Source: Hanstruepera marina
Lineage (GTDB): Bacteria; Bacteroidota; Bacteroidia; Flavobacteriales; Flavobacteriaceae
NCBI RefSeq assembly: GCF_019880635.1
Contig: NZ_JAINVX010000002.1
Span: forward strand, 248,001-312,000
Direction of reading: 5' to 3'
Length of the DNA: 64,000 nt
The position numbers and the translations under genes are program-made. Shown here piece by piece: positions 45,052 through 59,371 of the stretch (positions are counted from its first letter, which is position 1; the number at the start of each line of letters is the position of its first letter). The notes beneath the pieces were generated by a model. It saw only the letters and a list, made by a program, of their open reading frames with translations, searched no databases and was not told where the DNA came from.

Positions 45052-45354
45052 TTATAGCTTTTTCTTTTTCGGATTCTTTCTGTTTGAAAATAAAGAAACA
45101 ATCTCAATTGAATTTTTATTAATTCGGTAATAAAGATTGTTGTGTTTTTCGACTACAGCTTTTCGAATATTTTTTTTCTCGAATGATACTGGGAAAATTT
45201 CAGGTGATTTTGAAATCAGTTCTATTGTATGGTCTAATTTTGCAGAGAATGTTCTTAATTCTCTTTCTGTCCATTTATTCTCAAGATATTCAATAGTTTC
45301 TTTAAGTTCAGATATTGCGTGGTCAGTCCACAGAATCTTATAACCACTTTTCAT
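45052..45354 (-). CDS. RelE/ParE family toxin
   Basis: This 100-residue protein has the RelE/ParE fold pattern: YKILWTDHAISELKETIEYL, LISKSPEIFPVSF, then YYRINKNSIEIVSLFSNRKN with the conserved C-terminal arginine region. It is the probable toxin of a type II module, either a ribosome-dependent RNase or a gyrase inhibitor. Its start overlaps the antitoxin end by 17 bp. Confidence 0.87.
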   Translation of the reverse strand: MKSGYKILWTDHAISELKETIEYLENKWTERELRTFSAKLDHTIELISKSPEIFPVSFEKKNIRKAVVEKHNNLYYRINKNSIEIVSLFSNRKNPKKKKL

Positions 45355-45571
45355 AGATTCCTTTCACGTTTGAGTGAGAAGTCAATTTTCCGCCATCAGC
45401 ATCTTGAATCCCTTTTTCGATAGACTCTTTTTCGCTTGCAGAAATTTCATTCCACCAATCATTCTTCTCTTTCTCTCTTAATTTCATTAGTTTGTCAATC
45501 AGAGATGTATCATTCAAAGTTGATAGCCATTGAATTAATTCTATTTTTTTATTTTCTAAACTTAAATCCAT
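45338..45571 (-). CDS. Antitoxin of the RelE/ParE-type module
   Basis: This 77-residue acidic helical protein precedes and overlaps the toxin gene, as is standard for type II modules. It contains the segments IELIQWLSTLNDTSLIDKLM and WWNEISASEKESIEKGIQDA, seen in Bacteroidota antitoxins of the RelB-like type without an obvious DNA-binding fold. Assignment rests on partner and layout. Confidence 0.8.
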   Translation of the reverse strand: MDLSLENKKIELIQWLSTLNDTSLIDKLMKLREKEKNDWWNEISASEKESIEKGIQDADGGKLTSHSNVKGIYEKWL

Positions 45572-45767: not shown

Positions 45768-46703
45768 TTAATTCCATTGTTTGAGTGACGAGCTTAAACC
45801 TTGGTATATGGCAATGCCTGTCCAGTTGTAAGGTAGGGAATTGGTATCAAAGTTTCCATATTTAAAACTATGGTTGCTTATGCCGTTGTAATATCCAATT
45901 CCTTCAGCTGCGAGAGCCATATAAGTGGTTTCAGGGTGTTTACCATTGGCACCTTTAAGAACAAAATAGTTTTCACCACTACTGTGTTGTGGCAGGCTGC
46001 TTCCTACGTTTTGATAACCTTCTTGTAAACTGGTTGAGGTCTTTATCTTGGCATTGGTTTGATTATTGGCATTGGTGACATACTTAAAGGCAAACACATA
46101 GTTTTCGGGTTCTACGGTTGCATTATTGTCATTAGCATAGGTATAAAGCGCACTGTCATAGGATATGGAGTTGCTTCTATAGTATTGTGAATTGGAAGCA
46201 CCACATTTATTCACATCATATAGGTAATTGGCAAGATCGTTATACTCATTTTCAGTTATCATAACCCATTGTCCGTTTGAAGCGCTTTCATACGCACTTC
46301 GGGAATCATTTAAAAAGGACCAGATATCATCCATATTGTTTAGGTTAACAATAACTACCTTACTGCTGCTTTCTGTACCATTGGAAATAGCTACAGTAGC
46401 GGTGATGACTTCATTGGTTTCAAAATCGAAAACTTGCCAAGCAGCAACACGTAATTCCCCTGAATTACTATCAAGCGTAAAGGCATTGCTCACAGATTCT
46501 GAACTCAAAGAGAAAGTAACATCGCCTGAAAGGTTGGTGGAAATTATGGTGATTAGGTCGCCACTTCTTGGATTTTCGTTGAAGGCTATTTCAACCGTTG
46601 AACCATCGGAATTGTTTGGGGGATTTTGAGAATCATCACTATTACTACAGGACATTACTGTAATTAATACAAATAGGATGACTAGTTTAACTTGATTTTT
46701 CAT
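45768..46703 (-). CDS. Lipoprotein with cadherin-like repeat
   Basis: This 311-residue protein has a lipoprotein signal (VLITVMSCSNSDDSQ, lipid cysteine at 19, then S-N-S-D-D, compatible with surface export), one cadherin-like segment (NAFTLDSNSGELRVAA, then FDFETNEVITATVAISNG) and a C-terminal domain rich in Asn, Ser and aromatic residues that I do not recognise. It neighbours the TPR/LuxR regulator. It has a structured leader (46712-46791), a -7 element TAAGTTTG (46823-46816, minus) and GTGGACA repeats upstream, which suggests activator control. Confidence 0.72.
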   Translation of the reverse strand: MKNQVKLVILFVLITVMSCSNSDDSQNPPNNSDGSTVEIAFNENPRSGDLITIISTNLSGDVTFSLSSESVSNAFTLDSNSGELRVAAWQVFDFETNEVITATVAISNGTESSSKVVIVNLNNMDDIWSFLNDSRSAYESASNGQWVMITENEYNDLANYLYDVNKCGASNSQYYRSNSISYDSALYTYANDNNATVEPENYVFAFKYVTNANNQTNAKIKTSTSLQEGYQNVGSSLPQHSSGENYFVLKGANGKHPETTYMALAAEGIGYYNGISNHSFKYGNFDTNSLPYNWTGIAIYQGLSSSLKQWN

Positions 46704-46711
46704 AATAAAGT

Positions 46712-46791
46712 GTTTTGTGGTTTATGAAAGTTTGCAGCGAAATGCAATAGGAATTGTCTGCAGCCAAAACTATTGCAAGACACCACAAAAC
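46712..46791 (-). promoter_or_regulatory. Nested inverted repeats in the lipoprotein gene leader
   Basis: The arms gttttgtggt (46712-46721) and accacaaaac (46782-46791) pair perfectly over 10 bp, and inside them gcaatag (46744-46750) pairs with ctattgc (46770-46776). The structure ends 9 bases before the lipoprotein start codon. Confidence 0.6.
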
Positions 46792-46815
46792 TGGTATGCT
46801 AAACTAATAGCACTT

Positions 46816-46906
46816 CAAACTTACAATGACGAGTTTATGTGAAATAATTTATGCTGTGGACAACTAGTGGACATAGTAAATCAAAACGGTAGACAATAGG
46901 TGGACT
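46816..46906 (-). promoter_or_regulatory. Lipoprotein promoter with GTGGACA direct-repeat sites
   Basis: The -7 element TAAGTTTG is at 46823-46816 on the minus strand, with no good -33 box. Upstream of it, GTGGACA is at 46856-46862 and 46867-46873 (11-bp phase), and GTAGACA 46889-46895 plus GTGGACT 46900-46906 (again 11-bp phase, 33 bp from the first pair). Confidence 0.6.
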
Positions 46907-46925
46907 GAATTACTTAAACACTTGA

Positions 46926-48872
46926 TTACAATTTTATTACTAAATCCTGTAAGGAATCATCAGAAGACAAATCTAGTTTTTTACGCAATCTGTATCGGGC
47001 TTTTTTAATGCCTTCGCTAGATATGTTTAATATGTTGGCAATTTCTTTAGAAGACAGGTTCATCTTTAATAAAGCCATCAGTCTGAGTTCGTTTGAAGTA
47101 ACTTCTGGGTACTTCTTTTTAACATTGTTGTTAAAGTCTTTGTGTACTTCCTCAAAGTATTTTTTAAAGTTCTCCCAATTGTTATCATCTTTTAAATCAA
47201 AGTTAATGGTTTGAATAAGCTGTTGGTAGCCACTAGATGAGTTTGAGTATTTGAGTTCTTTGGCCTTGGCTTTTATTTCCTGAAGGACTTCATTTTTCTT
47301 TGCCAAATGTAGGGCATGCGAAGTCAGCTCTTTTTTCTTAAAGCTTAATTCGTTATCCAATTTTTCCTTTTCTGCACGATTGCGTTTTATTTTTTGACGT
47401 AAGCTATAAGCGGTCATCAATCCAATTAAAATAGCTGAAATTAGAGCAATGATTAAAATCAACCTAAAGGAATCATCCTTTTTCTTTTGGGCTTCTAGCA
47501 CCACAATGTCATTCTCTTTTTTCAGCAGTTCGTTTTCCTTTTTTTCTGTTTCATATTTTACTTTAAGCTCTTCGATTTCCTTGGCAGAATCTAAATTGAA
47601 AATACTATCATGTATGGTTTGATAATTTCGCTGATCTAACAAAGCTTGTTTAAAATTGCTGTTTTTTTCATAGGAAAGGGAACGGCCTTGATAGGCTTCT
47701 TCCAATAGTTTCAAAGCTGAAATGGAATCGGCAAATGCCACGGCTTTATCATAGCTTTCTATGGAGTTGCCATATTGCTTGTCGTTGCGATAAATTTCTC
47801 CCAACATATTATGGCCAACAATCAGGTTGTTCATGGATTGGATTGTGTTGGATATAAAAACCGATTCCTGCATGCTTTTCAAAGCTTTTTTGTAATCCCC
47901 TTTATCAGAATAGGTCATGGCAATGTTAGCTAGATTCATAATTTCCATGTCTGGACGGTTTAGCTCTTTGGAATAGGTTAAAGCTTTTTGATAATTTTCA
48001 AGAGCCAAGTCAAAGTTTTGGTTTTCTATTTCCAAGTTTCCAATTTCATTATATGTAATGGAAAGCCATTCAGTATTATTAATTTCCTTGAACTTATCAA
48101 GGGATTTCAGTAGGTAATTCATGGCTTCTTCGCTATTACCACGAAGCATTTCGATTCTGCCTAAATGACCAAGTGTTATGCCTTCACCTTTTAGGCTGGG
48201 TTTTTTAAGTGTGTCTAGAATTTTTAAAGATTTTAATCCTTGTTGGGTAGCTAAATCAAATTTACCCATGTCAATATAGGTTGTAGTTTTTCTACCAACG
48301 GCACTAGCAATGAGCAAGCCATTTTTGAGTTTTTTAGCAACAGCCATAGAAGAGTCCAAGAGGATGAGTCCTTTTTCAAAGTTACCTTGTAAAATTTCTA
48401 AAGTGGCATACTCCTCATAATTCCAACAGGTTCGTTTACCAGGTTTAGCTTTTTGCATAACATCAACTGCTTGTTGATAATAATATCGTGAAGAATCAAT
48501 ATTTGGCAAAAAGCGATAATAATAGGCATGGTTTCTATAAAAATCTCCTTGGGCAGTTTTAAGTCTCGTTTTTTTGGAAAGAGCCAATCCTTGTTTTGCG
48601 TATTCAAGCGCATCATTATTATTGGAATGCAATGTGGCGTTGAAAAGTTTTTGAAGAGCTCTTAAACGCTGTTTGTCATCTTTTGAAGTATTATAAACGG
48701 TTTCCAAACTATCTATTTTTTTTTGATTTTGGGAAAGCGTAACCATTGGGTTTAATAAGCAGATTAAAATAAACGTGAATAGCAATTTGTCCACTTTAAA
48801 GAACCGCTTATTTGAATTGGTTTGTAATGGGACAGCGTGAAATGCAGTTTTGGTTGCCATATTAAAAGTCAT
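46926..48872 (-). CDS. TPR-repeat membrane regulator with LuxR-type HTH
   Basis: This 648-residue protein has an N-terminal signal or membrane helix (LLFTFILICLLNPMVTLSQ), a long stretch of TPR units (about 60-440, for example NNTEWLSITYNEIGNLEIEN), a second membrane helix near 465-490, a coiled coil and a C-terminal GerE/LuxR-like helix-turn-helix (SNELRLMALLKMNLSSKEIA, then EGIKKARYRLRKKLDL). It looks like a one-component membrane sensor with an outer TPR domain and a cytosolic DNA-binding domain. It is divergent from the fibre operon and probably controls it and the lipoprotein gene. The start could also be the ATG four codons later. Confidence 0.85.
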   Translation of the reverse strand: MTFNMATKTAFHAVPLQTNSNKRFFKVDKLLFTFILICLLNPMVTLSQNQKKIDSLETVYNTSKDDKQRLRALQKLFNATLHSNNNDALEYAKQGLALSKKTRLKTAQGDFYRNHAYYYRFLPNIDSSRYYYQQAVDVMQKAKPGKRTCWNYEEYATLEILQGNFEKGLILLDSSMAVAKKLKNGLLIASAVGRKTTTYIDMGKFDLATQQGLKSLKILDTLKKPSLKGEGITLGHLGRIEMLRGNSEEAMNYLLKSLDKFKEINNTEWLSITYNEIGNLEIENQNFDLALENYQKALTYSKELNRPDMEIMNLANIAMTYSDKGDYKKALKSMQESVFISNTIQSMNNLIVGHNMLGEIYRNDKQYGNSIESYDKAVAFADSISALKLLEEAYQGRSLSYEKNSNFKQALLDQRNYQTIHDSIFNLDSAKEIEELKVKYETEKKENELLKKENDIVVLEAQKKKDDSFRLILIIALISAILIGLMTAYSLRQKIKRNRAEKEKLDNELSFKKKELTSHALHLAKKNEVLQEIKAKAKELKYSNSSSGYQQLIQTINFDLKDDNNWENFKKYFEEVHKDFNNNVKKKYPEVTSNELRLMALLKMNLSSKEIANILNISSEGIKKARYRLRKKLDLSSDDSLQDLVIKL

Positions 48873-48998
48873 AATAGTTGGTTTTAATACAATTCAAAAT
48901 ATAATTAATTGTAAATCAGAAATATAGTAAATTAAAATGACAGTGTTTACTGCCGTTATAAAAGTCTATAAAAATTATTAAATACTGTTTTAAAAGGG

Positions 48999-49016
48999 GT
49001 GGACAAAGGGTGGACA
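48999..49016. promoter_or_regulatory. GTGGACA direct repeat upstream of the fibre operon
   Basis: GTGGACA is at 48999-49005 and again at 49010-49016, an 11-bp phase identical to that of the pairs at 46856-46906. It lies in the divergent intergenic region, 66 bp before the operon's first ATG and 127 bp before the regulator gene. Confidence 0.65.
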
Positions 49017-49081
49017 TGGCCTTTTTTCCTTTTTTACTAGGCTAATACTAAATACATTAGCCGTAAGACAACCACTAAACC

Positions 49082-49579
49082 ATGTACAAGACATTTTTAA
49101 TTTTCACAATTGTTTGCTTGTTTTTTCAGACTGGATTTGCACAAATAAAGAAGAAAGAAACACTATCTAGTCAAGGTTCTTCACACTTTATTTATGCCAA
49201 TAATAAAAGTTATTTCATTCAAGAGAGTATTGGGCAAGCTAGCGTTACATTCACATACAATCTTGATGGCTATGCTTTGCGACAAGGCTTTTTACAGCCC
49301 ATTTCTCCTTCAGCTTTAAATGGAGGTTCAGATACAGATTTGGACGGTTATTTTTACCCTAATCCATTTGATAACGACATTCATATTCGGTTTAATGAAG
49401 CTATCTATGATGTTTTACAAGTAACTTTATTTGATGTGTTGGGAAGAACTATTTATAATAACGAGTTTGGTCCTGTACAAACACTGGATCTTGATTTTGG
49501 TTTTGTGAGTTCTGGTAATTATGTGTTAGTGGTTAGGATGCGTTCCAAAACGTTTTTGGCCAAATTAATAAGAAGATAG
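49082..49579 (+). CDS. T9SS type A sorting-domain protein, almost without passenger
   Basis: This 165-residue protein has a signal peptide (FLIFTIVCLFFQTGFAQ), a region of about 60 residues (SQGSSHFIYANNKSYFIQES, then IGQASVTFTYNLDGYALRQG) and a typical C-terminal type IX secretion sorting domain from about 90 (YFYPNPFDNDIHIRF, VTLFDVLGRTIYN, GNYVLVVRMRSKTFLAKLIR). There is no catalytic domain, so it is likely a small surface-attached structural or anchor protein. It is first of three genes, followed 1 base later by the barrel gene. Confidence 0.85.
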   Translation: MYKTFLIFTIVCLFFQTGFAQIKKKETLSSQGSSHFIYANNKSYFIQESIGQASVTFTYNLDGYALRQGFLQPISPSALNGGSDTDLDGYFYPNPFDNDIHIRFNEAIYDVLQVTLFDVLGRTIYNNEFGPVQTLDLDFGFVSSGNYVLVVRMRSKTFLAKLIRR

Positions 49580-49580
49580 T

Positions 49581-50231
49581 ATGAAACGGAATGTGCTTTT
49601 TTGGTGTTTTCTGTTTTTAGCAATAGGCGGTTTTTCACAACAGTTATATGTAGAGTTTGGACCAACTATTTCAGCTTTCGACTATAAAAATTCACAAGGA
49701 GAACCATTGGATAATTTATTGTCTAAGCCAAATATTTATTTGGGTATGGGTTATAGAAACGTGTTGAATAACAACCAAACCTTATTTGTTTCTCTAGGAG
49801 CATCCTACAATGGCTATGGCGCTATTGGTAGTGATAACAGGTTGGATAACTATTTTGAGTGGGATGTGAGCTATTTGGGTGTTAATGCAGGATTGGATGT
49901 TAAGCTGTTTAGTTTACGCGATTTTTCGTTTTATCTAAAGGGTTCAATAGCTGCTGAGTTCTTAATTCGAGGAACTCAAACAGTGAACAATCAGGTCTTT
50001 AATTTGGTTGGTGAAGATGAATTTAACAACACCATATTTTTTACCAGAGGTCATTTGGGAATGCAATATCCCATTTCACGAAATACATCGCTATTTGTTA
50101 ACTATACGTACGGGCGAACCGTGCTTATAGGAAAAGGAAATGGCATAGATGAAGAACAATTAAAACTAATCACACATCAATTTGGATTAGGCCTGATTAT
50201 CAATCTGCCTAATTGTAATTGTCCATTTTAA
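49581..50231 (+). CDS. Outer-membrane beta-barrel protein of the fibre operon
   Basis: This 216-residue protein has a signal peptide (LFWCFLFLAIGGFSQ) and alternating hydrophobic strands typical of a small barrel (LYVEFGPTISAFDYKNSQGE, SLGASYNGYGAIGS, HQFGLGLIINLPN). It ends with cysteines (NCNCPF) instead of the usual C-terminal aromatic. The family is not recognised. Position between a T9SS-sorted protein and a fibre protein suggests it anchors or exports the fibre, which is inference. Confidence 0.72.
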   Translation: MKRNVLFWCFLFLAIGGFSQQLYVEFGPTISAFDYKNSQGEPLDNLLSKPNIYLGMGYRNVLNNNQTLFVSLGASYNGYGAIGSDNRLDNYFEWDVSYLGVNAGLDVKLFSLRDFSFYLKGSIAAEFLIRGTQTVNNQVFNLVGEDEFNNTIFFTRGHLGMQYPISRNTSLFVNYTYGRTVLIGKGNGIDEEQLKLITHQFGLGLIINLPNCNCPF

Positions 50232-50243
50232 ATTTTTTAAATT

Positions 50244-52334
50244 ATGAAAAAGTTAGCCTTATTATTTGTTTGCTGTTTTATAACGCTTTTAGGATTTTCA
50301 CAAACAGATGGTATCAGTTACCAAGCAGTTATCATTGATAACAACCCACAAGAAATACCAGGAGTTGATATTCCATCTAATAACTTGCCAAATGTACCTT
50401 TACAGGTTCAATTTTCAATTATTGATAACAATGGATCTGTTGAATACCAGGAAATCCATAGTACAACAACCGATGCTTACGGAATGATTCATTTAATGAT
50501 TGGTCAAGGTCAAACTGTAATAAATAGTTTCAACCAAATATATTGGAATAATGAAAAATATTTGAAAGTTGAAATAGATTTGAACGATGGAAATGGTTGG
50601 GTAGGTTTCAGCTATCAAGAACTTACTTATATACCTTATGTAAAGCATCGTGAAATCATTGCAACTTCAACATTGGATGTAGATGGTGCTACTAATTTAA
50701 ACAACAGTTTTTCAGTAAACAATGCGAGTCCGTCTCACTTAACAGGTGATTTGACTGTAGATGGAAATACAAATTTAAATGGTGCTCTAACAGTTTTTAA
50801 TCAAGAGCCAACTTTACTTACGGGAGATTTAACCGTAGAAGGAACAGCTAACTTTTCTGATGGTGTATTTGATAATATTACGGTAAACCAACATGCAGCA
50901 TTAAACACAGTAACAGCTGACGGAGTAGTAAACTTTAATAGTGATTTTTATGTCAATAATCAAAGCCCTACTGATTTATCAGGGAACTTAACGGTTGATG
51001 GGGAATCAGAATTTTTCAATAGAGTAAAAATAGATGTTTCATTGGCTGAAACAGATATAGATGATTATGATGCTTATCCATTACAGATAGAGGGAAGTCA
51101 ACAAGGAATCGCTATTAAACTGGCTCCTAATTCACCAAATAGAAATAATAATTACATATCTTTTTGGGATGGTGATAACACGATAAGGGGTAGAATAGAA
51201 GCGAATGAAGGTCTTGTTTCAATATCAACGGATATTATTTGGGATCTTATTACCATTCCCGACTTTGGTGATGTCATTGATGCTGATCCAGATGATACAC
51301 CTCCCGATGTAGAACCAAATCAATATTTTAATAATAATTATGCTTTTGGAGCCTATTCTTTGACTTTAGAGTTAGTATCTCATATCATTAGGTTTGGAAT
51401 TAATGTAACAGCTGCATTGGGCTTTTGCGCTACTGGAGATTGCGATGACGTGGTTTGGTCTTTTATGGACGTTGTGGTTGCTGGTATTCAGCTTGGAGGA
51501 TACATTACATATAATGAAATTAACATTGGAGTTGCTTATGAATCCGGAGGAGCAGATTATGCCGAATGGCTACGAAAATACAATACAAATGAAGTATTGA
51601 GCTTTGGTGATGTAGTAGGCGTTAAAGCAGGGATGATTTCAAAATCATTTGCAGATGCTGATAAGTTTATGGTCATTTCACAAAATCCTATGATTAGTGC
51701 TGCAATGCCTGAAAAAGGAAATGAGAAGGACTATGAAAAAGTAGCATTTATAGGGCAGGTGCCTGTAAAAGTCTTGGGTAAAGCATCAGTAGGAGATTAT
51801 ATTGTGTCAACCGGAAATGCTGACGGTTTTGCAATTGCAATTTCTCCTGACCAAATGAATATTAACGATTATAAACGGATAGTAGGAGTAGCATGGGCTG
51901 AATCCATTGGAGATAACGTTTTCAGTTATGTTCAAACAGCTATTGGGATTAATGCAAATGATTTGACATTCCAAATTGAAAAGATGCAAGTTATAATGAA
52001 TATGATGCAGGAATCTTTGGCAAAACTAGATTCAGGGTTTAAGCCCCAACTATTTGATGTGGAATCTGAAATTCAACCAAAGGAAGAATCCAAACCTGCG
52101 ACAATACAGGAGCGTATAGCTGAAAAGACAACAAGTAAAAACTATACCTCACTCAAAGAAGCCATTCAACAAATTGAAAAAGATTATATTAAACAATCTG
52201 GTTTTGATATTATGAAACTGCCATATTTACAAGAAGTTATAGATAACCCTAGCAGAGAAAATGCAGAGAAATTAGTAGACTATTACAATCGGGTATTAGT
52301 TAAATTACAGAAAATGAACCCAAGTAAATTCTAA
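50244..52334 (+). CDS. Surface fibre protein with repeated stalk
   Basis: This 696-residue protein has a signal peptide (LALLFVCCFITLLGFSQ) and an N-terminal beta domain typical of Bacteroidota fibre and collagen-like proteins (GISYQAVIIDNN, then VEYQEIHSTTTDAYGMIHLM). From about 140 to 265 a stalk of repeats of LTGDLTVDGNTNLNGALTV type follows, three copies with LTGDLTV or LSGNLTV. A C-terminal head has SGGADYAEWLRKYN, then FGDVVGVKAG, as in tail-fibre and IMC-like domains, and a final coiled-coil part. No T9SS sorting domain is present. It is probably a trimeric surface fibre. Confidence 0.78.
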   Translation: MKKLALLFVCCFITLLGFSQTDGISYQAVIIDNNPQEIPGVDIPSNNLPNVPLQVQFSIIDNNGSVEYQEIHSTTTDAYGMIHLMIGQGQTVINSFNQIYWNNEKYLKVEIDLNDGNGWVGFSYQELTYIPYVKHREIIATSTLDVDGATNLNNSFSVNNASPSHLTGDLTVDGNTNLNGALTVFNQEPTLLTGDLTVEGTANFSDGVFDNITVNQHAALNTVTADGVVNFNSDFYVNNQSPTDLSGNLTVDGESEFFNRVKIDVSLAETDIDDYDAYPLQIEGSQQGIAIKLAPNSPNRNNNYISFWDGDNTIRGRIEANEGLVSISTDIIWDLITIPDFGDVIDADPDDTPPDVEPNQYFNNNYAFGAYSLTLELVSHIIRFGINVTAALGFCATGDCDDVVWSFMDVVVAGIQLGGYITYNEINIGVAYESGGADYAEWLRKYNTNEVLSFGDVVGVKAGMISKSFADADKFMVISQNPMISAAMPEKGNEKDYEKVAFIGQVPVKVLGKASVGDYIVSTGNADGFAIAISPDQMNINDYKRIVGVAWAESIGDNVFSYVQTAIGINANDLTFQIEKMQVIMNMMQESLAKLDSGFKPQLFDVESEIQPKEESKPATIQERIAEKTTSKNYTSLKEAIQQIEKDYIKQSGFDIMKLPYLQEVIDNPSRENAEKLVDYYNRVLVKLQKMNPSKF

Positions 52335-54531: not shown

Positions 54532-54798
54532 GGTTGTCAATTTTTTAATAAATGTAATAAAAATGTGGTTATTAATCATGTAATCAGTTATAAAGTTAGC
54601 TTTCTTAAAAATGAATTTGGTATTAAATTGAGTGAATCCTACTCTTTAATTAGGGAATCGTGACATATGGTTAGGGAATAGTCTTTTTGCTGCAAATACC
54701 GGTTAAATTAAAACTTAGCTGTTAAAAAAAAGCTAAAAACCATTTATTGAAATTTAGTTTACAAAAGATGGTATCTTTACATAAATTTTGAATTGCGT

Positions 54799-56403
54799 AT
54801 GCCAACAAATAGTGTTCCCTTTCGAGAAACCCATTACTTTTCAAATTTAATATGTGATTATTTAGATGAAAAACCTGAATGGCAACCGTTTTATAATCGT
54901 TTTCCCAAAATTGAAAACTTCAAGGCTCAAATAGAAGAAAAACGAAAAACATTTTCTCCACAAACCAGAAAAAGCCTTGTAAAATCGCTTAATGAGCAAT
55001 ATAAAAATGTTGAGGCGTCGCAACTTACATTTCAAAATATAAATGCCTTACAAAACGAAACAACATTTACGGTTACTACAGGTCATCAATTAAATTTATT
55101 TACGGGGCCACTTTATTTTTTCTACAAAATAGTATCTACCATAAATCTATGTAAAGAATTAAAGGCAGCATATCCAGAATTTAATTTTGTACCCATATAT
55201 TGGATGGCTACTGAAGATCATGATTTTGAGGAAATAAATTTTTTCAACTTTAAAAATGAAAAGGTAAGGTGGGATAAAGAAGCTTCTGGAGCGGTTGGTG
55301 AATTGCATTTAAATGAAATAGAGGACGTATTTCATACTTTTGAAAGCAAACTAGGATTGGGCAAGTATGCCAATGAGTTGAAGCAACTTTTTAAAACCGC
55401 TTACTTAAAGCACCAAACTCTAACTGAAGCCACGCGATATTTGGTTAATGAATTGTTTACGGAATATGGTCTGGTAATTTTAGACGGAAATGATAAAGGG
55501 TTGAAAGCGATATTCAAACCTTATATAAAAAACGAACTTCTTGATAAAACTGCCTATAAGCATGTGTCTGAAACCAATGAAAAAATTAAGAAGGTAAATT
55601 CAGATTATACCATTCAAGTTAATCCCAGAGAAATTAATTTGTTTTATCTAAATCAAGGTATTCGAGAACGTATTGTGGAAGATAAAGGGCAATATATGGT
55701 TTTGGAAACCAATTTAAATTGGGATAAGGAAACCTTGCTAAAGGAAGTAGATAATTACCCGGAACGTTTTAGTCCAAATGTGATTTTAAGACCACTCTAT
55801 CAAGAAGTAATACTGCCTAATTTATGCTACATTGGTGGAGGAGGTGAATTGGCATATTGGTTTCAGCTTCAATCTAATTTTGAGGCTAACAATGTTACAT
55901 TTCCAATACTGTTACTTCGTAATTCGGTTTTAATTACATCTCAAAAGCAACGTTCTAAACTTGAAAAACTCGATTTAAAAATAGCAGATTTGTTTATTGA
56001 TCAGGATGAACTTGTTTCTAAAGTAACAAAACAAGTGTCTTCAATAGATATAGATTTTTCAGAACAAAAGGAACATCTCAAAAAGCAGTTTAAGGATCTA
56101 TATAAATTATCGGAACAAACCGATAAATCGTTCGTTGGAGCAGTATCGGCTCAAGAACGAAAGCAAATTAAAGGTTTGGAACATCTAGAAAAACGGTTGT
56201 TAAAAGCTCAAAAAAGAAAATATAATGAACGTTTAGACCGTGTCTCCAAATTGCAGGACGAATTATTTCCAAACAAAAGTTTACAAGAGCGTTATGCTAA
56301 TTTTTCAGAGTTTTATTTAGTGTATGGAGACCAATTTATTCAGCTGTTAGTCGTAAATTTGCAACCGCTTAAAGGGGAGTTTACAATACTAAATTTAGAC
56401 TAA
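54799..56403 (+). CDS. bshC: Bacillithiol biosynthesis cysteine-adding enzyme BshC
   Basis: This 534-residue protein is full-length BshC: TTGHQLNLFTGPLYFFYKIV, YWMATEDHDFEEIN, PNLCYIGGGGELAYWFQL in the active-site region and a C-terminal coiled-coil. It adds cysteine to glucosaminyl-malate in bacillithiol synthesis. The ATG at 54799 is preferred to a TTG two codons earlier. bshA and bshB are not in the window. The next gene starts 3 bases after the stop. Confidence 0.94.
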   Translation: MPTNSVPFRETHYFSNLICDYLDEKPEWQPFYNRFPKIENFKAQIEEKRKTFSPQTRKSLVKSLNEQYKNVEASQLTFQNINALQNETTFTVTTGHQLNLFTGPLYFFYKIVSTINLCKELKAAYPEFNFVPIYWMATEDHDFEEINFFNFKNEKVRWDKEASGAVGELHLNEIEDVFHTFESKLGLGKYANELKQLFKTAYLKHQTLTEATRYLVNELFTEYGLVILDGNDKGLKAIFKPYIKNELLDKTAYKHVSETNEKIKKVNSDYTIQVNPREINLFYLNQGIRERIVEDKGQYMVLETNLNWDKETLLKEVDNYPERFSPNVILRPLYQEVILPNLCYIGGGGELAYWFQLQSNFEANNVTFPILLLRNSVLITSQKQRSKLEKLDLKIADLFIDQDELVSKVTKQVSSIDIDFSEQKEHLKKQFKDLYKLSEQTDKSFVGAVSAQERKQIKGLEHLEKRLLKAQKRKYNERLDRVSKLQDELFPNKSLQERYANFSEFYLVYGDQFIQLLVVNLQPLKGEFTILNLD

Positions 56404-56406
56404 TTC

Positions 56407-57777
56407 ATGCATAAGATTGATATTGAACTTATTGAAATGACGTTAGACGTCATGAAGTATGCCATAGGTAGAATTTCAGCAACCGAACACGAGATAGGAA
56501 AACCTAAAAAAGCGGAAGAGCTAAAAGCTCTGGTAGGGGAAACTGTAACGGAAAAAGGAATTGGCGGCGAATATGCATTTAACCTTTGGAAAGAACATCT
56601 ATCTAAAGCCAATGTCCCGGTTGACCACCCTAGAAATTTAGCATTTGTACCGGCCTCACCAACTCGAGCAGCTGTTATGTTTGATTTAATAACTTCGGCT
56701 TCGAGTATTCATGGTGCCTATTGGATGGAAGGTGCTGGAGGTATTTTTTGTGAAAATGAAGCCATGAAATGGATTGTGTCGTTAACAGGCTTGCCCGAAG
56801 GTGCTTTTGGAGTATTTACTAGTGGAGGTACAGCTGCCAATTTATCGGCAATTGTTACGGCCAGAGAGTATTGGAGAAGAGATGATACCTATAAACGTGA
56901 AAAAGGCTTGATTATAACATCAATTGGTGCGCATTCATCAATTAAGGCCATGGCCAAAGTGGCAGATGTCGATATATTATTGGTAGATACAGAAGAAAAA
57001 CTTACTGGAAGTTCCCTTCGTGAAACTATAGACAATTTAACATTTCATCAACGTAAGCGTTTGTTTGCTGTTGTGGCAACTGGAGGAACAACCAATGCGG
57101 GAATTATTGATGATTTAGAAGGTATTGCTGAAGTTTGTGAAACAGAGCGATTATGGTTTCACGTCGATGCAGCTTATGGTGGCGGAGCTCTTGCTGCCGA
57201 CTCGGTTAGACCATTGTTTAAAGGTATTGAACGCGCAGATAGTATTACTATAGATCCTCATAAATGGATGTTTTCACCATACGATTGTGGAGCGGTTATT
57301 TATAAAAATCCAGAATTGGCCAAAGAAGCGCATTCGCAACAGGGTTCATATTTAGATATTTTTAAAGATGAAGGCGCCCATGGTTTTAATCCAACCGATT
57401 ATCAAATACAGTTAACTCGTCGAGTAAGAGGATTGCCACTATGGTTTTCATTGGCAACTCATGGTACAGATAGATATAAAGAGTCTGTAGAACGAGGCAT
57501 TGAATTGGCTCAAATTGCTGGAAGAATGATTGAGGAAGACCCAAATTTAGAATTGGTAAGAGAACCAAGCTTGTCCTGTGTGCTTTACAGAAGAATTGGG
57601 TGGAAGCCAGAAGACTATACACATTGGACTTACGAAAATCATAAAAAAGGATTTGCATTAGTTACACCAACAAAATGGAAAAATGGCAACACTTTTGAAA
57701 CCGTTTCAAGGTTTTGCTTTATTAATCCGGATACAACTGAAAAGGATATTCAGATGATTTTAGAATCCATGCAATAA
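56407..57777 (+). CDS. Pyridoxal-phosphate-dependent decarboxylase (group II)
   Basis: This 456-residue fold-type I enzyme has SGGTAANLSAIVTAREY, HVDAAYGGGALAA and the PLP lysine K286 in TIDPHKWMFSPYDCGAV, as in the aromatic-amino-acid/glutamate/aspartate decarboxylase group. Substrate unclear; aspartate, glutamate or aromatic acids are possible. It sits 3 bp behind bshC, so the two are co-transcribed. Whether this is functional is not known. Confidence 0.87.
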   Translation: MHKIDIELIEMTLDVMKYAIGRISATEHEIGKPKKAEELKALVGETVTEKGIGGEYAFNLWKEHLSKANVPVDHPRNLAFVPASPTRAAVMFDLITSASSIHGAYWMEGAGGIFCENEAMKWIVSLTGLPEGAFGVFTSGGTAANLSAIVTAREYWRRDDTYKREKGLIITSIGAHSSIKAMAKVADVDILLVDTEEKLTGSSLRETIDNLTFHQRKRLFAVVATGGTTNAGIIDDLEGIAEVCETERLWFHVDAAYGGGALAADSVRPLFKGIERADSITIDPHKWMFSPYDCGAVIYKNPELAKEAHSQQGSYLDIFKDEGAHGFNPTDYQIQLTRRVRGLPLWFSLATHGTDRYKESVERGIELAQIAGRMIEEDPNLELVREPSLSCVLYRRIGWKPEDYTHWTYENHKKGFALVTPTKWKNGNTFETVSRFCFINPDTTEKDIQMILESMQ

Positions 57778-57835
57778 ATACACAAAAAATAGAGATGGAT
57801 GTATGTCAATCTAAATGCAATTATTACTTTTGCAC

Positions 57836-59371
57836 ATGCAACACAATAACGTACTTATTTTAGACTTCGGATCGCAATATACACAGCTTATTGCGAGACG
57901 TGTAAGGGAACTCAATATTTACTGCGAGATTCACCCATTTAACAAGATTCCAAACAACATTGAAAGCTATAAAGCTGTTATCTTATCAGGTAGCCCAAAC
58001 TCGGTGAGAGGAGAAGATGTTTTGCATCCAGAATTAAAAGGCATTCGAGGCGAGAAACCTTTGTTGGCTGTTTGTTATGGTGCACAATATTTGGCACATT
58101 TTTCAGGAGGTGAAGTAGCACCTTCAAATACTAGAGAATATGGTCGGGCCAATCTATCTTATATCAAAGAAAAAGAATCATTTTTTCATAATATATATGA
58201 AGGCAGCCAAGTTTGGATGAGCCATAGCGATACCATCAAGAAACTCCCTGAAAATGGTGTGCTTTTGGCAAGTACCCACGATGTTGAAAATGCAGCTTAT
58301 AAAATTGAAGGGGAGCAGACCTATGCTATACAGTTTCATCCAGAAGTATACCATTCAAAAGATGGAAAACAATTATTAGAAAATTTTTTGGTAGATATTG
58401 CTGGTGTTAATCAAGATTGGACACCGCAATCTTTTGTAGAAGAAACAGTAGCCGACTTACAAAAGCAATTAGGTGATGATAAAGTCGTGCTTGGTCTATC
58501 TGGAGGTGTGGATTCTTCTGTGGCAGCTATGTTGCTTCACAAAGCCATTGGGAAAAACTTGTATTGCTTATTTGTAAATAATGGCTTGTTACGAAAGAAT
58601 GAATTCCATGATGTACTTGAGCAGTATAAAGGCATGGGGTTGAATGTAAAAGGCGTTGATGCTTCGGCACGCTTTTTGGAAGCCTTAAAGGGATTAAGCG
58701 ATCCAGAGCAAAAGCGTAAAGCAATTGGTCGCGTTTTTATTGAGGTTTTTGATGATGAAGCTCATGAAATTACCGATGTAAAATGGTTGGCTCAAGGTAC
58801 CATTTATCCAGATGTTATAGAAAGTGTTTCGGCAACTGGTGGGCCTAGCGCAACTATTAAAAGCCATCACAACGTTGGTGGGTTGCCAGATTTTATGAAG
58901 CTGAAAGTGGTAGAGCCCTTAAAAGCATTATTTAAGGATGAGGTTAGACGTGTTGGAGCTTCAATGCATATGGAAAAATCGCTTTTAGGTAGACACCCAT
59001 TTCCTGGCCCAGGTTTGGCTATTAGAATTTTGGGAGATATTACGGCCGAAAAAGTTCGTATATTACAAGAGGTTGACGCTGTTTTTATAAATAATTTAAA
59101 AAAATGGAATTTATATGATAGCGTTTGGCAAGCTGGAGCCATATTATTACCAGTTAATAGTGTTGGGGTTATGGGAGATGAACGTACCTATGAAAAATGT
59201 GTAGCCTTAAGAGCTGTTGAAAGTACTGACGGTATGACTGCAGATTGGGTAAATTTACCTTATGAGTTTTTACAAAAAACCTCGAACGAAATAATAAATA
59301 AGGTAAAAGGCGTTAATAGAGTAGTGTACGATATCAGTTCAAAGCCACCTGCAACAATTGAGTGGGAATAG
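57836..59371 (+). CDS. guaA: GMP synthase (glutamine-hydrolysing)
   Basis: The start at 57836 ([19 protein letters not shown]) matches family N-termini and gives 511 residues; the frame extends upstream but without family similarity. It has the glutaminase domain ([14 protein letters not shown] with the catalytic Cys, [10 protein letters not shown]), the ATP-pyrophosphatase ([15 protein letters not shown]) and the C-terminal dimerisation domain ending in [11 protein letters not shown]. It converts XMP to GMP. A -7 element TACTTTTG (57825-57832) ends 3 bases before the ATG. Confidence 0.96.

Follow-up and report, generated by a model that had tools for sequence, protein, structure and literature searches.

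Direct repeats flanking a TPR-HTH regulator gene of Hanstruepera marina as its probable operators, and a recurring lipoprotein module with a structured leader RNA

In this work, a 64-kb stretch of the Hanstruepera marina genome (hereafter, the window) was analyzed, within which paired GTGGACA direct repeats lie on both sides of a gene encoding a tetratricopeptide repeat (TPR) protein with a LuxR-like helix-turn-helix (HTH) domain. We consider it highly probable that these repeats are the operators of this regulator, which, as an inner-membrane protein, would activate the neighboring lipoprotein gene and would also act on a divergent operon. Such an assignment of the repeats was proposed in the first-pass annotation, and sequence comparison supports it in two ways, i.e., the pairs recur at a fixed spacing, and in all 43 helix-operator pairs compared the operator sequence accords with the recognition helix encoded next to it.

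The pairs reported in the first-pass annotation (the exact ones at 46856/46867 and 48999/49010 and the degenerate one at 46889/46900) were all confirmed. At the scale of the window they are unremarkable, as three matches were found at no more than 3 mismatches and 41 of 100 shuffled sequences reach the same number; the lone GTGGACA occurs there at a chance-level frequency. The genome-wide motif scan suggested earlier revealed only two exact pairs within the 3.28-Mb genome, both flanking the regulator gene, and none for the reversed pattern used as a control, which fits the proposed small local regulon. With up to 2 mismatches allowed, nine matches were counted versus seven for the control, which indicates that the remaining matches in the genome are chance-like.

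A sample of 299 genomes of the family (Flavobacteriaceae), analyzed with the same kind of control, contained 26 exact pairs (in 22 genomes) versus 3 control sites. Twenty-five of these sites, including the two of the window, adjoin homologs of the regulator, of the leader of the lipoprotein mRNA or of the divergent operon, and the exception (locus L021) has no such homolog within the 3 kb viewed. The nearest named relative of the regulator (91%) is encoded by Hanstruepera neustonica, apparently on the very contig that carries both pairs (L035, L084). At the loci where a pair recurs beside a regulator homolog, its spacing to the promoter is fixed. A lack of conservation at orthologous loci, named beforehand as an argument against the operator role, was not observed for most of the loci seen, as the pairs recur beside homologs of the regulator.

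The helix-operator comparison was based on classes read from the residue in the KKAR-x-R motif of the recognition helix and from its context. Class Y (26 modules) is accompanied by TGTCCAC in both units (15 modules) or by near variants (11 modules), class Q by TGTACCC in both units (10/10), class N by TGTCACC in the second unit (4/4), and class IPG-Q by AGTATAC...TGTCTCC (GTATAC/GTCTCC; 3/3). Almost half of the compared pairs (21 of 43) come from loci fetched independently of the repeat pair. Nine of the 52 leaders described below were kept out of this comparison, since none of them directly follows a regulator that is encoded on the same strand and has a readable helix; five of these later gave a helix (L077, L128, L139, L136, and L142) and four gave none (L121, L138, L141, and L125). 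Two extra modules from named contigs combine a PDG..Y helix with CGTCTAC/TGTCTAC (L181) and a VAG..Q helix with GTATAC/GTCTCC (L183).

Table 1. Features of the module and of its divergent operon within the window.
Feature	Position	Strand	Remarks
Promoter-proximal putative operator pair, GTGGACA-N4-GTGGACA	46856..46873	-	Reads TGTCCAC-N4-TGTCCAC on the lipoprotein gene strand; about -45 to -62
Second, degenerate pair, GTAGACA-N4-GTGGACT	46889..46906	-	2 mismatches; 33 bp upstream of the proximal pair, at about -78 to -95
Putative operator pair of the divergent operon, GTGGACA-N4-GTGGACA	48999..49016	+	Polarity opposite to the lipoprotein-type sites
-7 box of the lipoprotein promoter, TAAGTTTG	46816..46823	-
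Structured 5' leader of the lipoprotein mRNA	46704..46812	-	Hairpin H1 at the presumed +1 (about 46811), long stem-loop with a CUGCAG loop, AACCACAAAAC at the 3' side
Lipoprotein, 311 aa	45768..46703	-	Cadherin-like domain near residues 36-121
TPR regulator	46926..48872	-	Hydrophobic stretch at the N-terminus, TPRs, strongly hydrophobic internal segment (residues 471-489), C-terminal LuxR-like HTH with helix NISSEGIKKARYRLRKKL
Type IX secretion system (T9SS) type A sorting-domain protein	49082..49579	+	First gene of the operon
Outer-membrane beta-barrel protein	49581..50231	+
Fibre-like protein (name from the first-pass annotation)	50244..52334	+	No Pfam family

The lipoprotein gene is preceded by a structured leader, for which Rfam 15 gave no match at E ≤ 1 within positions 46500-49300 of the window and, within the loci of the relatives, only a tRNA at the gathering threshold (in L064, L066, L068, and L073). 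The RNA model R1, with the window itself among its 22 training sequences, matches the window with 83.6 bits (46701-46813) and 33 of the 299 family genomes at E ≤ 0.01. A phylum-wide sample of 295 further genomes gave no match at E ≤ 0.001, under stricter filters, which we read as specificity and limited range of the leader; a similar leader was found by pattern in a Saprospiraceae metagenome-assembled genome (L183). Twenty-five leaders were found by pattern, and alignments A1 and A2 left out two (L079, L082) and three (L079, L082, L081) of them, respectively. In A2 (22 leaders), 10 base pairs show two-sided changes versus 5.3 after shuffling, with none of 500 shuffles reaching 10, and 11 such pairs were found when the distal arm was used. 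Hairpin H1 with the long CUGCAG stem covaries in this alignment above all 500 shuffles and above slid controls. Both alternative structures covary above the shuffles, with H1 and P2, common to both, carrying most of the signal.

With less certainty, the leader may be considered bistable, because its GUUUUGUGG arm has two alternative partners, i.e., the proximal arm and AACCACAAAAC, which is situated just before the AUG and is able to replace one stem arm. Such a switch would add a second, translational layer of control. It is quite possible, though we do not favor it, that the leader is merely a stable 5' structure protecting the mRNA, without any switching, as H1 begins at the presumed +1 and covaries, and among the 50 leaders measured, 44 have the stronger fold at the proximal arm and five at the distal one. 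However, most leaders retain the two alternative arms: in 49 of the 50 measured, pairing of 6 bp or more is available to the 5' arm with each of the downstream copies (the figure has no shuffled baseline, and two of the 52 were unmeasured), and pairing of at least 7 bp with the distal copy in 48 and with the proximal one in 42 of these 50. Furthermore, L129 shows a joint change of the 5' arm and the distal copy, and CUGCAG is kept in 48 of the 52 leaders, which also speaks against a purely protective structure.

These 52 leaders, found with R1 in 52 sources (the strand was chosen by us, and weaker reverse-strand echoes were set aside), defined the set of homologous promoters. PMC9723704 gives the consensus of the -7 box as TAnnTTTG, and it was taken as -12 to -5. 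The TAnnTT[TC][GA] motif occupies the -10 position of the leader model in 50 of the 52 promoters; in the 22 training leaders this position is predetermined, because their start was set from that box, and among the 30 leaders outside the training set the box is found there in 28. Of the 52 promoters, 44 carry a repeat with a lag of 11 bp and at least 6/7 agreement at position -60 of the leader model, at a background of about 2/7, and 48 reach at least 5/7; the remaining four are L125 and the three sites of the IPG type. Since the exact pair had guided the retrieval of 20 loci, a fair estimate comes from the 29 loci fetched independently of it, 25 of which reach at least 6/7. A TGTCCAC-type pair (up to 2 mismatches) is also present at -93/-92 in 15 of the 52 promoters, where a single pattern was sought and operators of other types are thus invisible, and in a pattern-free lag-11 scan at -93 just 5 of the 52 reach 6/7.

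The transcription start of the window lipoprotein gene presumably lies near 46811, which would place both operator pairs in phase with the DNA helix. Operators at such distances occupy the usual place for activators. The first-pass annotation likened the promoter to activator-dependent ones, and the spacing of the operators fits its poor -33 box, but the direction of control, i.e., activation and not repression, we infer from this spacing only.

Two other explanations concern the agreement between helix and operator. According to one of them, the protein binding the pairs is a different regulator, e.g., a response regulator of the OmpR/PhoB type, with the TPR protein merely encoded nearby. Boxes of OmpR/PhoB are 11-bp direct repeats with the same 7+4 layout, the match of the regulator to LuxR/GerE HTH (PF00196, residues 592-640) is weak, with 22.5 bits below the Pfam gathering cut-off of 23.5, and in the 13.8-kb loci of four homologs with the Y-class helix (L178, L179, L180, and L182) no pair was found even with 3 mismatches allowed. 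The pattern scan showed no leader in these four either, and in L179 the regulator gene is not directly followed by a lipoprotein gene; such homologs may serve other sites or may have lost the module. Nevertheless, changes of the operator track the helix of the neighboring regulator also at loci containing two or three modules (L068, L066, L076, L131, and L064), and on a tree of the regulator part without the HTH, where the helix and the operator undergo 14 changes each, nine of nine independent contrasts agree (p = 0.0039). We find a foreign regulator very improbable. The operator search covered the closer homologs of the regulator, with most of L040-L063 and L184-L254 lying outside it.

The second explanation, which we find equally improbable, assumes hitchhiking, in which the 3'-terminal part of the regulator gene travels with the operator and the leader as one recombining block. 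In the 43 pairs a gap of about 90-280 bp separates the end of the regulator open reading frame (ORF) from the leader, and since helix and operator are so close together, both could move as one block; moreover, the tree of the TPR part needs 14 changes of the helix class. Yet the rule is kept by modules in which the helix is encoded about 2 kb from the operator, i.e., five with divergent LPDS-type regulators (L139, L136, L142, L088, and L089; TGTCCAT-N4-TGTCCAT), whose HTH-coding end is that distant, and two convergent Y-type ones (L077, L128), and the operon pair of the window, 2 kb from the helix, matches too.

The interpretation of the repeats as operators of this regulator has to be weighed against several points, to which the weak HTH match, the Y-helix homologs devoid of pairs, the proximity of helix and operator, and the derivation of activation from spacing also belong. 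The helix classes were drawn after the operators had been seen, from the same data, and their borders are blurred, as L143 (Y) has TGTCCAT, and L126 and L127 (Y) share one TGTCCCC unit with L120 (N). The tree was a quick one, without bootstrap and with 10 of its 40 inner branches open, and the helix labels cluster on it hardly above shuffled ones (26 of 200 shuffles are as low), which means that the tree is weak and that the apparent reshuffling may partly result from its poor quality. On the operon side, L146, which is one of the 20 closest operon homologs, and all of the next 10 have no pair, and the promoter motif is weak (T..G at +41 to +44 after the pair). A chance origin of the repeats was rejected at the scale of genomes (exact pair 2 vs. 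0, family 26 vs. 3), not at that of the window, and so was an RNA-level role of GTGGACA, because the pairs are situated upstream of the -7 box.

The strongest internal hydrophobic stretch of 19 residues exceeds 1.6 in 41 of 43 regulators and starts 173-180 residues from the C-terminus. Such a segment between the sensor part and the HTH suggests that the regulator is probably of the membrane one-component type, with the TPR part outside the inner membrane and the HTH inside. On a signal, it would bind head-to-tail on one face of the DNA, with two units per pair and with two pairs occupied at some promoters, that of the window included; the divergent operon would be its additional target. The HTH, operator and leader seem to have been exchanged among different sensor domains, which gives several apparently separate channels in one genome. 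Only tentatively, we propose a broader picture, in which membrane TPR-HTH regulators with at least four operator codes, each combined with a bistable leader, form parallel and probably insulated channels that sense envelope events and release surface lipoproteins, many of them probably pore-forming weapons, at the levels of transcription and translation. If this is true, the reshuffled HTH-operator-leader blocks would re-wire which signal drives which lipoprotein.

An ORF is situated behind 50 of the 52 leaders. At two loci, L079 (12082) and L082 (7423), the leader, the -7 box and the operators are kept, and no lipoprotein ORF was found behind them. The lipobox cysteine is invariant in all 49 aligned lipoproteins. 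The encoded proteins form clusters of 15 cholesterol-dependent cytolysin (CDC)-like, 12 about 560-aa, 12 window-type, five about 750-aa, and five about 124-aa proteins, and one single. Thiol_cytolysin (PF01289) was matched by 15 of the 49 lipoproteins scanned (the 84-aa single was left out); the window lipoprotein gave no match to this family, and its candidate pore-forming nature was rejected, as no family was found. Its AlphaFold model is poor (mean pLDDT score of 60, five sequences), and only the cadherin-like domain in it is trustworthy. The 12 proteins of about 560 aa (family B; L070, L068, and others) are possibly another kind of pore-former, with weak PDB matches to a lectin beta-trefoil (E 0.07) and CEL-III (E 0.53), and family D gave nothing useful. 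On a Psychroserpens contig (L181, 8044-11035), three tandem copies of the window-type lipoprotein gene are located behind one leader.

In the case of the divergent operon, a pair (up to 2 mismatches) was found near the beta-barrel gene in 19 of the 20 closest homologs, its own one included. Five of these 19 (L160-L164) have ATGGACA-type pairs, which lie at a greater distance and with reversed polarity, and in most of them a TA..TTTG-like box follows at the usual spacing. In all 24 operon-side sites chosen for comparison, the first unit retains GACAAA and the second one GGAC, which is partly a result of the motif-based choice. At five loci (L065, L075, L079, L080, and L082), with the beta-barrel gene preceding that of the T9SS protein, the operator pair is placed between the two genes.

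Genes resembling bshC, a decarboxylase gene and guaA (named by eye) are located near the module in the window (54793-59371) and at several of the loci L064-L089, forming a recurring chromosomal neighborhood. A plasmid origin was rejected, as a megablast search with positions 46601-49600 against a plasmid collection gave no match. Two small neighboring ORFs (45052-45354 and 45338-45571) resemble, by eye only, a ParE/RelE-type pair.

The control of CDC-like and related surface lipoproteins in Bacteroidota seems to be hardly described so far, as no publication on it was found by title and beginning of the abstract, in a search mostly outside the subscription literature. The nearest published neighbor found is BT_3442 (NF053779 family), a TPR protein heading the MACPF lipoprotein cluster of Bacteroides thetaiotaomicron, about whose TPRs the passages concerned state no more than that such repeats are frequent mediators of protein interaction (PMC2954219). 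The likeness lies in a TPR protein beside lipoproteins of pore-forming kinds, and the window regulator is matched by the family model, most strongly in the C-terminal part (E 6.6e-16), with 58.1 bits lying below the cut-off of 940; unlike in our module, neither an operator nor a leader is mentioned in the passages of PMC2954219 on the BT_3442 cluster. Compared with the CDCL pore-forming proteins of Bacteroidota (PMC11169675), the PF01289 matches among the leader-driven lipoproteins are a point of contact, which the window lipoprotein does not share; the words transcription, LuxR, and tetratricopeptide are absent from the main text of that paper.

As judged from sequence, a one-component regulator of the membrane type, its operator code and a covarying leader lacking an Rfam match probably make up the module. 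One regulator family, a readable code and such a leader make a directly testable system, and the helix-to-operator code could allow new members of the regulon to be predicted from sequence. The regulator resembles the membrane one-component regulators ToxR and CadC in that a membrane segment presumably separates the outer sensor part from the DNA-binding domain, but the order of domains is reversed, with a TPR sensor followed by a LuxR-like HTH. Similarly, the operators share the 7+4 layout with the 11-bp direct repeats of Pho boxes, but they are linked with a LuxR-like instead of a winged-helix HTH and fall into several specificity classes.
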